64,000 nt of DNA from Rhizobium sp. CIAT894. GTDB lineage: Bacteria; Pseudomonadota; Alphaproteobacteria; Rhizobiales; Rhizobiaceae. Below are positions 26,798 to 29,356 of the stretch, in pieces. Both the position numbers and the translations under genes were made by a program. Position 1 is the stretch's first letter, and the number at the start of each line of letters is the position of its first letter. The stretch lies in assembly GCF_000172795.2 (NCBI RefSeq), contig NZ_CP020952.1, forward strand, positions 558,001 through 622,000, read 5' to 3'. The notes below the pieces were generated by a model that was not told the origin of the DNA, searched no databases, and saw only the letters and a list, made by a program, of their open reading frames with translations.

Positions 26798-26828
26798 CCG
26801 TCATCCCAGGGCTTGACCCTGGGATCCA
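26798..26828. repeat. palindromic mosaic element, copy B
   Basis: CCGTCATCCCAGGG-cttga-CCCTGGGATCCA. A 9-bp perfect stem (ATCCCAGGG/CCCTGGGAT) has a 5-base loop. It pairs with copy C through a linker of about 69 bp that is the reverse complement of the linkers in the units at 28.9 and 29.2 kb. Confidence 0.9.
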
Positions 26829-26897
26829 TGCGGCTGGTACTGTGTGGAAAGAGATGGCGTCCAACTGCAGACAAGTTATTAAGGCCGTGCGCTTGGC

Positions 26898-26917
26898 TGT
26901 GGATCCCAGGGTCAGGC
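26898..26917. repeat. palindromic mosaic element, copy C, left part (split by an IS)
   Basis: The left half (GGATCCCAGGGTCAGGCC) stops at the left end of the IS4-family element. The right half (ggtcaggccCTGGGATGACGG) resumes at 28,192-28,213 after it. Joining the halves and removing one 9-bp duplication restores a normal copy. Confidence 0.9.
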
Positions 26918-28191
26918 CCACTGCTGTCCGGTTTAAATTTAGTGGACATGGTGCACGGTGTTGATTCTACTCGTATTCGAGCGTTTCGCGACGATCTCGG
27001 ACACGAAATAGGAGCAACACCGTGCGGCATGACAATAGCGTCTTTCATGATCTGTTGAAGCGGATTCCGTGGACGATCTTCGAAAGACTTGTGGAGGAGC
27101 ATCAGGCCGACAAGCATGTTCGGCGGCTGTCGACGAAGAGCCAGTTGATCGCCCTGCTTTACGGCCAGCTTGCCGGTGCCGTCAGCCTGCGCGAGATCGT
27201 CGGGTCCCTGGAAAGCCATAGTGCCCGCCTTTACCATCTCGGCGCTCGCCCGGTGTCGCGCTCGACTTTCGCCGATGCCAACGGCCTGCGTCCGAGCGCC
27301 GTTTTTACCGAGTTGTTTACGCAGATGCTGGCCCGCGCCGGGCGCGGCCTCAAGCGGGCCATCGGCGAGGCGGTCTATCTGATCGACGGCAGCAGTCTGC
27401 CACTTTCCGGGGCGGGATCGCAGTGGGCCCGCTTTTCCGATCAGGCCTGCGGCGCCAAGATGCACGTCGTCTATGATGCCAATGCCGAACGGCCGATCTA
27501 TGCGGCCGTCACCGCGGCCAATGTCAACGACATCACCGCCGCCAAGGAGATGCCGATCGAGGCGGGCGCCACCTATGTCTTCGATCTCGGCTATTACGAT
27601 TTCGGCTGGTGGGCGAAGCTGGATGCCGCCGGCTGCCGCATCGTCACCCGCCTCAAGTCCCATACGAAACTGACAGCGAGCGCCGAGCAGGCGGTCAACG
27701 AGGATGCCGGCATCCTGTTCGACCGCATCGGCCTGTTGCCGCAGCGCCAGGCCAGGAGCCGCCGCAATCCGATGAACCGGCCGGTGCGCGAGATCGGCGT
27801 GCGGATCGAAACCGGCAAGATATTGCGCATCTTCTCCAACGATCTTACCGCCCCGGCCGAGGAGATCGCCGCACTTTACAAGCGCCGCTGGGCGATCGAA
27901 CTGTTCTTCCGCTGGGTCAAGCAGACGCTGAAAATCCGCCATTTCCTCGGCAACAGCGAAAATGCAGTGCGCATCCAGGTGGCCGTCGCTCTGATCGCCT
28001 ATCTGCTGCTGCAGATGGCAAAGGCCGACCAGGCCACCATCATAAGCCCGCTGGCCTTCGCCCGCCTGGTGCGCACCAACCTGATGCACCGCAAAAGGAT
28101 CGACCGCCTGCTAAAACCACGCAACAACCCTCCCGGAAATCCCGGCCAGATGAGCCTCCAATGGTGACACAATTTAAACCGGACAGCAGTG
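26918..28191 (+). mobile_element. IS4-family insertion sequence, complete, with 9-bp target duplication
   Basis: A 1274-bp element. It is bounded by perfect 21-bp terminal inverted repeats at 26918-26938 and 28171-28191, beginning CACTGCTGTCCGG. It is flanked on both sides by the direct repeat GGTCAGGCC (26909-26917 and 28192-28200). It contains one intact transposase gene. It has inserted inside a copy of the host palindromic repeat. Confidence 0.93.
27022..28167 (+). CDS. IS4-family transposase (DUF4372 N-terminus)
   Basis: A 381-residue DDE transposase. The N-terminal DUF4372-like region (LLKRIPWTIFERLVEEHQ) precedes the catalytic domain. First Asp in YLIDGSSLPLSG, second Asp in YVFDLGYYDFGWW, and the family YREK signature in YKRRWAIELFFRWVKQTLK. 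A GTG start is used. The reading frame is uninterrupted and its stop lies 24 bp from the right terminal repeat end, so the element may still be active. Confidence 0.93.
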   Translation: MRHDNSVFHDLLKRIPWTIFERLVEEHQADKHVRRLSTKSQLIALLYGQLAGAVSLREIVGSLESHSARLYHLGARPVSRSTFADANGLRPSAVFTELFTQMLARAGRGLKRAIGEAVYLIDGSSLPLSGAGSQWARFSDQACGAKMHVVYDANAERPIYAAVTAANVNDITAAKEMPIEAGATYVFDLGYYDFGWWAKLDAAGCRIVTRLKSHTKLTASAEQAVNEDAGILFDRIGLLPQRQARSRRNPMNRPVREIGVRIETGKILRIFSNDLTAPAEEIAALYKRRWAIELFFRWVKQTLKIRHFLGNSENAVRIQVAVALIAYLLLQMAKADQATIISPLAFARLVRTNLMHRKRIDRLLKPRNNPPGNPGQMSLQW

Positions 28192-28213
28192 GGTCAGGCC
28201 CTGGGATGACGGA

Positions 28214-28358
28214 GAGTGGGGTTGGCTTTCTTGCCAAACGCATCGGCGGTGCAGCGTGTGAGGCGCGGTTTCTACCGTAGCTTCATCGCGCCGGCGAGCT
28301 TGGGCATCGCGGCACCACCTCTCCTCCCCTGCCCTTGCTCCGGAAGCCGCCCCACTCT
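28214..28358. repeat. spacer of the mosaic repeat, inverted and diverged copy
   Basis: This stretch resembles the reverse complement of the 139-bp spacers at 28,757-28,895 and 29,028-29,166: the blocks around ttggctttcttgccaaacgc, gcgccggcgagctt and ggcaccacctctcctcc correspond. It then ends with the same ccttgctccggaagccgccccac block found before copy B. It encodes nothing convincing. Confidence 0.7.
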
Positions 28359-28389
28359 CCGTCATCCCAGGGCTTGACCCTGGGATCCA
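28359..28389. repeat. palindromic mosaic element, copy D (left flank of GIY-YIG gene)
   Basis: Same 31-bp unit as copy B and in the same orientation. It ends 20 bp before the GIY-YIG start codon. The bases after it (cagccgagcactc) match the left end of the short linkers elsewhere. Confidence 0.9.
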
Positions 28390-28409
28390 CAGCCGAGCAC
28401 TCTGCACAC

Positions 28410-28694
28410 ATGGCAGGATATGTTTACATCGTCACCAACCAGAAAAACGGCACCCTCTATATCGGCGTGACCTCCGATCTGGAGCGCCGCATTTATGAAC
28501 ATCGCGAAGGGCTGACGCCGGGCTTTGCCTGGAAATATGGATGCACCCGCCTCGTCTGGTATGAGGAGCATTGGGATATCGGCAGCGCGATCCAGCGCGA
28601 GAAGTCATTGAAACGGTGGAACCGGCAATGGAAAATCGACTTGGTCGAGGCGATGAATCCCGAGTGGGACGATCTCTATTTGACGCTTTGGTGA
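28410..28694 (+). CDS. GIY-YIG nuclease family protein carried inside a palindrome-bounded unit
   Basis: A 94-residue single-domain GIY-YIG protein of the UPF0213/YhbQ-like size class. GYVYIVTN and GTLYIGVT supply the two catalytic tyrosine strands, ERRIYEHREG carries the conserved Arg and His, and QREKSLKRWNRQWK carries the metal-binding Glu with the family's basic tail ending in MNPEWDDL. The frame is open upstream through copy D, but those residues come from the repeat; ATG 28410 starts at the conserved MAGYVYI. The gene lies between inverted palindromes D and E and is bordered by the two ends of the linker that occurs without a gene in other units, so it looks like the coding cargo of a full-length version of that element. 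Confidence 0.88.
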   Translation: MAGYVYIVTNQKNGTLYIGVTSDLERRIYEHREGLTPGFAWKYGCTRLVWYEEHWDIGSAIQREKSLKRWNRQWKIDLVEAMNPEWDDLYLTLW

Positions 28695-28725
28695 TGCCAT
28701 CTTTGTTCACGTAGTGCCAGCCGCA

Positions 28726-28756
28726 TGGATCCCAGGGTCAAGCCCTGGGATGACGG
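28726..28756. repeat. palindromic mosaic element, copy E (right flank of GIY-YIG gene)
   Basis: TGGATCCCAGGG-tcaag-CCCTGGGATGACGG, inverted relative to copy D. The 29 bp before it (ccatctttgttcacg...) match the right end of the short linkers. It starts 31 bp after the GIY-YIG stop. Confidence 0.9.
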
Positions 28757-28895
28757 AGGAGAGGTGGTGCCGGGACACACAAGCTTCGCTGGCGCGATGA
28801 AGCTGCGACTCAGCAGCGGCGATGAAGCCGCGGCAGAAGTGGCGTCTCGCAGGCTGCGCCGACGGTGCTTTTGGCGAGAACGCCAACCCCATTCC

Positions 28896-28926
28896 CCGTC
28901 ATCCCAGGGCTTGACCTTGGGATCCA
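28896..28926. repeat. palindromic mosaic element, copy F
   Basis: R-orientation copy with one stem change (CCTTGGGAT). It is followed by the 70-bp linker 28,927-28,996 and then copy G, making a gene-less R-linker-F unit of about 132 bp. Confidence 0.88.
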
Positions 28927-28996
28927 CAGCCAAGCACTCGGCTTCAATAATTTCGCTGAATTGCTGCCCATCTCCTTTCACGCAGCACCAGCCGCA

Positions 28997-29027
28997 TGGA
29001 TCCCAGGGTCAAGCCCTGGGATGACGG
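28997..29027. repeat. palindromic mosaic element, copy G
   Basis: F-orientation copy closing the gene-less unit that begins with copy F. Its stem is identical to that of copy E. Confidence 0.9.
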
Positions 29028-29166
29028 AGGAGAGGTGCTGCCGGGACACACAAGCTTCGCCGGCGCGATGAAGCTGCGACTCGGCAGCTGCGATGAAGCC
29101 GCGGCAGAAGTGGCGTCTCGCAGGCTGCGCCGACGGTGCGTTTGGCGAGAACGCCAACCCCATTCT

Positions 29167-29197
29167 CCGTCATCCCAGGGCTTGACCCTGGGATCCA
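29167..29197. repeat. palindromic mosaic element, copy H
   Basis: R-orientation copy with a perfect stem. It is followed by a 70-bp linker to copy I. Confidence 0.9.
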
Positions 29198-29267
29198 CAA
29201 CCAAGTACGCGGCTTCAATAATTTCGTTGAATTGCGGCCCATCTCTGTTCACGCAGCGCCAGCGGCA

Positions 29268-29298
29268 TGGATCCCAGGGTCAGGCCCTGGGATGACGG
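29268..29298. repeat. palindromic mosaic element, copy I
   Basis: F-orientation copy with loop tcagg, as in copy C. It closes the second gene-less unit. Confidence 0.9.
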
Positions 29299-29322: not shown

Positions 29323-29356
29323 TGGATCCCAGGGCCAGCAAGCCCTGGGATGCCGG
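29323..29356. repeat. palindromic mosaic element, copy J (variant)
   Basis: F-orientation copy with a longer loop (CCAGGG-ccagcaag-CCCTGGGATGCCGG) and one changed base outside the stem. It lies 66 bp from the end of prc and could act as a transcription barrier between convergent genes. Confidence 0.85.

Follow-up and report, generated by a model that had tools for sequence, protein, structure and literature searches.

In a 64,000-nucleotide stretch of the genome of Rhizobium sp. CIAT894 (the window; contig NZ_CP020952.1, positions 558,001 to 622,000), a gene for a 94-amino-acid GIY-YIG nuclease lies between two inverted, CGTC-tagged REPs, forming a unit of 398 bp (28359-28756). Genes of this kind are associated with REPs across the class, the type of REP follows the type of nuclease, and the same sites are empty, occupied by a short gene-less unit or occupied by the nuclease in related genomes. 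On this sequence evidence, the protein is probably the cognate nuclease of CGTC-tagged REPs, with gene-bearing units being copied, in a manner that resembles homing, to places where REPs already reside. What spreads CGTC REPs is left open in the available text of Di Nocera et al. 2013 (PMC3733652). A conserved flanking nuclease is a direct candidate for the spreader and offers a testable pair of enzyme and cognate REP, with several independent nuclease–REP pairs in one genome and a natural series of sites (empty, short and long).

REP D (28359-28389, forward strand) consists of the tag CGTC, a 9-bp stem, the loop CTTGA and the tail CCA, which faces the gene. It is followed on the same strand by a left half-linker (28390-28409), the nuclease gene (28410-28694; Pfam PF01541, E = 8.7e-18) and a right half-linker (28695-28725), both half-linkers being common to the short units described below, and then by REP E (28726-28756, reverse strand), an inverted copy of D. 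The hairpin CCGTC-ATCCCAGGG-CTTGA-CCCTGGGAT-CCA is present as two copies on opposite strands around the gene with their tags facing outwards, and positions 28357-28389 are complementary to 28726-28758 at 33 of 33 bases, which bears out the preliminary description of inverted palindromes flanking the reading frame at 20 bp (D) and 31 bp (E). An open frame (28335-28694) passes through REP D into the nuclease gene.

Three gene-less units surround the long one. Units F-G (28896-29027) and H-I (29167-29298) are each 132 bp long and lie on the forward strand. A unit with its linker in the opposite orientation, as had been reported from the initial inspection, is present as A-B on the reverse strand: it runs from 26798 to 26919, at which point REP B is interrupted by an insertion sequence (26920-28190, forward strand; DUF4372 and DDE_Tnp_1 transposase at 27022-28167, with the 11-bp repeat GGGTCAGGCCC at its edges), and the right part of REP B continues at 28191-28212. 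REPs E to H are contained in a tandem duplication (28697-29238) whose two 271-bp copies (28697-28967 and 28968-29238) are 93% identical, and a further, degenerate REP lies at 29323-29356 on the reverse strand. Rfam returned nothing above its gathering score for the window; below it, two stretches covering the short units (28897-29026 and 29168-29297) resembled WsnRNA46 (Wolbachia sRNA 46) at 48.6 and 55.6 bits against a gathering score of 65.3, and this RNA family may be a transcribed pair of CGTC REPs.

Alignment confirms that long units of about 398 bp stand beside gene-less short units of about 132 bp with half-linkers in common. At equal distance from the REP, the left half-linker (16 bp) matches at 14 positions in F-G, 11 in H-I and 12 in A-B (reversed), and the right half-linker (29 bp) at 23, 25 and 23, respectively; in the other orientation the same three units give only 1-2 of 16 and 6-7 of 29. 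Two further short units, on contig C1, match in the reversed orientation (10/16 and 22/29; 11/16 and 19/29). F-G and H-I both lie in the 271-bp tandem duplication and so are not independent copies within the array, and the independent support therefore comes from A-B and the two units on C1, in which the similarity recurs. F-G and H-I share a middle of approximately 28 bp that is absent from the long unit, which gives the short units the look of a separate family. The suggested relation of an autonomous element to its deletion derivatives thus stands as far as the shared half-linkers are concerned, whereas its simple form, in which short units are fresh deletions of the long unit, is disfavoured by that middle. 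The same relation of short to long recurs in a second clade of nucleases (clade B, below): the ten B-type short units that were fetched have spacers of the form REP-hairpin-GACTC...GTCTTCC-hairpin-REP, and clade B gene units in one genome (G033; L054 and L069) carry matching hairpins, with GACTCTT/AGAGTCTTC adjoining the REPs.

The palindromes of the window are CGTC REPs as these are defined in the available text of Di Nocera et al. 2013 (PMC3733652). All four parts fit, namely an unpaired CGTC, TGTC or CCTC tag, a stem of 8-9 bp that starts with AT, a loop of 4-5 nucleotides and a CCA tail, and so does the occurrence in pairs. They are dispersed and multicopy, as 46 places in the genome match the REP pattern with at most three mismatches and none matches a reversed control pattern. 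Among the 160 REPs nearest to nuclease genes in the loci surveyed below, the tags are CGTC (119), TGTC (26) and CCTC (15), the tail is CCA in 132, and the commonest combinations of stem and loop are 9/5 (108), 8/4 (22) and 8/5 (21). CGTC REPs are described in the same text as abundant in alphaproteobacteria and present in other phyla, and as having no associated transposase gene (they ‘apparently lack a dedicated transposase’). Because the palindromes belong to a REP family reported without a transposase, the analogy with REP/RAYT pairs drawn in the preliminary description is well placed. ‘Excinuclease ABC complex proteins’ appear among the REP-decorated genes in that text, and some relatives of the window gene, among the matches listed, bear the name ‘excinuclease ABC subunit C domain’ protein; our guess is that Di Nocera et al. 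saw the GIY-YIG gene family without recognizing it.

In the protein itself, residues Y6, Y17, G19, R27, H31, E64 and N83, which we take to have catalytic or active-site roles in the GIY-YIG fold, are invariant over 45 homologues. Only GIY-YIG and T5orf172 were recovered from Pfam, with the HUH tyrosine transposase domain not found there, and NCBIfam gave a weak sub-threshold match and nothing more. The search for protein homologues returned 4,059 at E ≤ 1e-3. The closest solved sequences are UPF0213/URI-domain proteins (PDB 1zg2, E = 1.4e-5; 1ywl, E = 0.008), which have the size and domain of the window protein and for which we know of no function or repeat association.

The genome carries five GIY-YIG genes of this kind according to a single-protein search and six according to a profile search, and each clade has palindromes of its own. 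Two clade A genes (the clade of the window) go with CCCAGGG/CTTGA REPs, a clade B gene with ATTCCTGTG/CTTGT REPs (both downstream), a clade C gene with CCTCGGG/CTTGT REPs on both sides, and a distant clade D gene with a longer palindrome on both sides. The same pairing of four clades with four palindrome types recurs in the genus, in which 38 of 60 genomes have any match to the nuclease. Clade D (L005 and 15 further loci) goes with another large family of palindromes (CCCTCATGGTGAGGAGG... or CATCCTGAGGTGC...), and a shared inverted repeat was found at 12 of its 16 loci (score at least 12 in 300-bp flanks, a count made without shifted controls). CGTC REPs are also present in betaproteobacterial relatives, such as one from Undibacterium (L232, 58%), where the loop has 4 nt.

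Homologues chosen by protein similarity alone (108 loci from a class sample and named GTDB contigs) share an inverted repeat between both flanks at 64 loci, compared with 7 of 624 control windows shifted by 700-1,100 bp (score at least 15, 250-bp flanks). A strict search for tagged REPs, in which the tag had to be present together with a stem that begins with A, has a length of at least 7 and is followed by a C, found at least one REP beside 106 of 147 loci (both sides in 54, one side in 52, none in 41) and 82 of 797 controls (2, 80 and 715). The proportion with at least one REP was 35/39 in the genus, 22/29 in the class sample (loci chosen by protein alone) and 49/79 in the named contigs. Flanking palindromes are thus the rule among homologues, and their general absence, which would have spoken against the association, was not encountered. 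The nearest REP has its tag outwards on 113 of 160 sides and inwards on 47. The strict definition is escaped by the enlarged hairpins of lineages such as Mesorhizobium, in which several nuclease genes (L184-L186, L194, L199, L202, L207 and L213) have an enlarged flanking hairpin (CTTCGTCATCCTAGGGCGAAGCAAGGAGCG...) that seems to be a REP whose loop has expanded.

The type of loop also tracks the nuclease. On a tree of 105 proteins, built from few columns and with many unresolved forks, loop type changes 16 times (95 rows), compared with a mean of 40 and a minimum of 34 in shuffled assignments; CTTGA-like and CTTGT-like loops alone require 8 changes (81 rows), compared with a mean of 27 and a minimum of 21. 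Clades A, B and C occur with different loops in a single genome, so that host ancestry alone is insufficient to account for this tracking. Across 288 genomes of the class, the nuclease (E ≤ 1e-20) and a REP pattern, which is narrow and misses the type found in the window, occur together in 60, the nuclease alone in 31, the REP alone in 36 and neither in 161 (Fisher p = 4e-15, a value inflated by shared ancestry). The pattern is accordingly missing from 31 of the 91 nuclease-positive genomes, and nine nuclease-negative genomes have at least ten REPs, one of them 134.

Empty and filled sites, which the preliminary description had proposed to look for, were found: at sufB-sufC, site 1 and site 2, related genomes have nothing, a short unit or the nuclease. 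Between sufB and sufC, as read by eye, a clade C gene unit is present in 6 of the 30 genomes listed, another genome (G014; L253) retains a gene-less REP-linker-REP remnant, and four loci (L249, L256, L260 and L262) have no REP. At site 1 (29 genomes), the gene is present in 1, a tag-inward pair of REPs in 7, a single REP in 1 and none in 20; at site 2 (30 genomes), the gene is present in 1, a gene-less tag-outward pair in 5 (and, by eye, at L305) and no pair in 23. Clade A as a whole is represented by 13 copies in at least eight flanking contexts, and the gene unit was found in few plasmid records. At the window locus, next to prc, one genome has the gene (G047), one only a fused REP (G055) and one neither (G040); there was no clean empty site among the genomes compared there, and the flanks are too variable for the junction to be read. 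By eye, no target duplication was seen at the prc, site-1, site-2 or sufBC loci, where the flanks vary enough to hide one, and a precise end of the unit was not found at the loci examined. In other genomes (L264, L265, L271, L276, L277, L296-L299 and L307-L310), an unrelated palindromic element (CCCCTCACCCTAACC... / CACCTTCTCCCC...) occupies the intergenic sites at which REP units are otherwise found.

One genome (G026) has the gene at both site 1 and site 2, in copies that are identical over 392 bp (16 bp upstream of the ATG plus 376 bp starting at it). The identity takes in the downstream REP and the 15 bp past its tag, beyond which the surroundings are unrelated. The upstream REPs of the two copies differ, with paired changes in the stem. 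At site 1 the upstream REP (CGTCATGCTCGGG...) is the one that resides there in two gene-less genomes (G040 and G045), and at site 2 both REP variants are also found in a gene-less genome (G055) at that site, with their order swapped. Identical copies with differing upstream REPs that match the residents indicate that the gene moved recently, and the pattern places the upstream junction in or beside the resident REP. The second copy therefore looks like the product of recombinational copying at REPs and not of a transposition event whose ends are fixed. Hairpins fused from two REPs, with a doubled tag or a doubled tail (L094, L041, L074, L092, L161 and L164), likewise suggest that the hairpin is a place of breakage or recombination.

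A gene that passes from one REP locus to another while the upstream REP stays the local one could also be a selfish homing endonuclease, for which REPs would serve as target and as recombination homology while spreading by other means and gaining nothing. REP-rich genomes that have no intact cognate gene fit such a parasite (46 and 38 A-type REPs in G007 and G034; 59 and 26 B-type REPs in G055 and G046). However, REPs are more numerous in genomes of the genus that have the cognate nuclease: B-type REPs have a median of 31 with an intact clade B gene versus 2 (p = 1e-4), and A-type REPs a median of 9 with clade A versus 1 (p = 7e-4), with p values that overstate independence because the genomes are related. 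Clade A does not go with more B-type REPs (p = 0.33); A-type REPs are, however, also associated with clade B (p = 0.016), and both types are associated with clade C (p of about 0.005 and 0.007), so that the association is in part phylogenetic. These copy numbers, and the half-linkers that short units have in common with the gene unit, make a purely selfish endonuclease unlikely.

We give still less credence to a function that benefits the host, in which cutting of REP-bearing single strands would serve to control DNA uptake, recombination or the ends of mRNAs and the flanking REPs would act mainly as regulatory sites in cis. A regulatory role of this kind is reportedly claimed for Ssn in Neisseria. 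The distance between the upstream REP and the start codon is conserved (where that REP faces outwards, its tail ends 16-27 bp before the start codon in 37 of 59 loci), and the gene is under purifying selection, with a median dN/dS of 0.11 in clade A (49 pairs) and 0.07 in clade C (30 pairs), the two clades for which the value is defined (in clade B it is undefined). Purifying selection is also compatible with an active mobile-element gene, however, and the patchy distribution in the genus, with several clades per genome and many sites, argues against a host function. That REPs are merely hot spots of insertion and rearrangement in which a small gene was caught by chance and then duplicated is very improbable: an insertion sequence did enter REP B, as is known for REPs (PMC1525189, in the part available), and the array is tandemly duplicated, but recurrence across the class far above the controls and the tracking of the nuclease tree by loop type largely refute this explanation.

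Under the reading that we prefer, in which CGTC-tagged REPs have this protein as their cognate nuclease and gene-bearing units spread by homing-like copying, the REP-spacer-REP short units of approximately 130 bp would be non-autonomous repeats, and the long unit a short unit whose middle has been replaced by the nuclease gene. We infer that the protein would recognize its own family of REPs by stem and loop, and that its nick would fall either beside the unpaired tag or at the hairpin itself. When this cut is repaired, units might be copied, as in homing, to places where a REP or a pair of REPs is present already, and the gene-bearing unit would be copied along now and then. More tentatively, as a broader proposal that could well turn out otherwise, GIY-YIG proteins may be the missing mobilizing enzymes of the CGTC REP superfamily and thus a second counterpart, of unrelated chemistry, to the RAYTs of GTAG REPs; hairpin-specific nicking and homing-like copying of units would take the place of transposition, and separate nuclease–palindrome pairs would coexist within a single genome.

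Known systems resemble this one in part. Rhizobia also have RIME elements, which are short intergenic elements with two large palindromes. GIY-YIG homing endonucleases share the catalytic domain, and their copying into gene-less allelic places is a behaviour that the chimeric second copy in G026 and the gene-less alleles would fit, whereas the genes described here have no intron and no DNA-binding extension, and their target would be a dispersed family of REPs instead of one site. The Ssn proteins of the GIY-YIG superfamily (from work by Chenal, Veyrier and co-workers, Nat Commun 2025) are said to cut single-stranded DNA at a repeat present hundreds of times in Neisseria, and reportedly have thousands of homologues, each with its own sequences. 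That work may cover part of the present findings, and the initial statement that no description of such a system was known may be outdated; if Ssn acts as reported, biochemical action on repeats was already known, and what would be new is the identity of the repeats as CGTC REPs, the anatomy of the unit, the series of sites and the chimeric copying. Among the matches listed in a search of open-licence PMC papers, we found none that ties GIY-YIG genes to REPs.

The closest precedents are REP systems themselves. CGTC REPs have no gene partner in the available text of Di Nocera et al. 2013 (PMC3733652), in which GIY-YIG does not appear, whereas here a GIY-YIG gene is their recurrent partner. The REPtron, or REPIN-RAYT system (TnpA-REP), as presented in the available part of PMC8266576, likewise places a nuclease gene between inverted REPs, with numerous gene-less pairs in addition and with co-evolution of enzyme and REP, but it combines an HUH tyrosine transposase with a GTAG tag, whereas the system described here combines a GIY-YIG protein with CGTC. 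If our reading is true, REP-type elements have had two or more separate origins, in association with unrelated enzymes.
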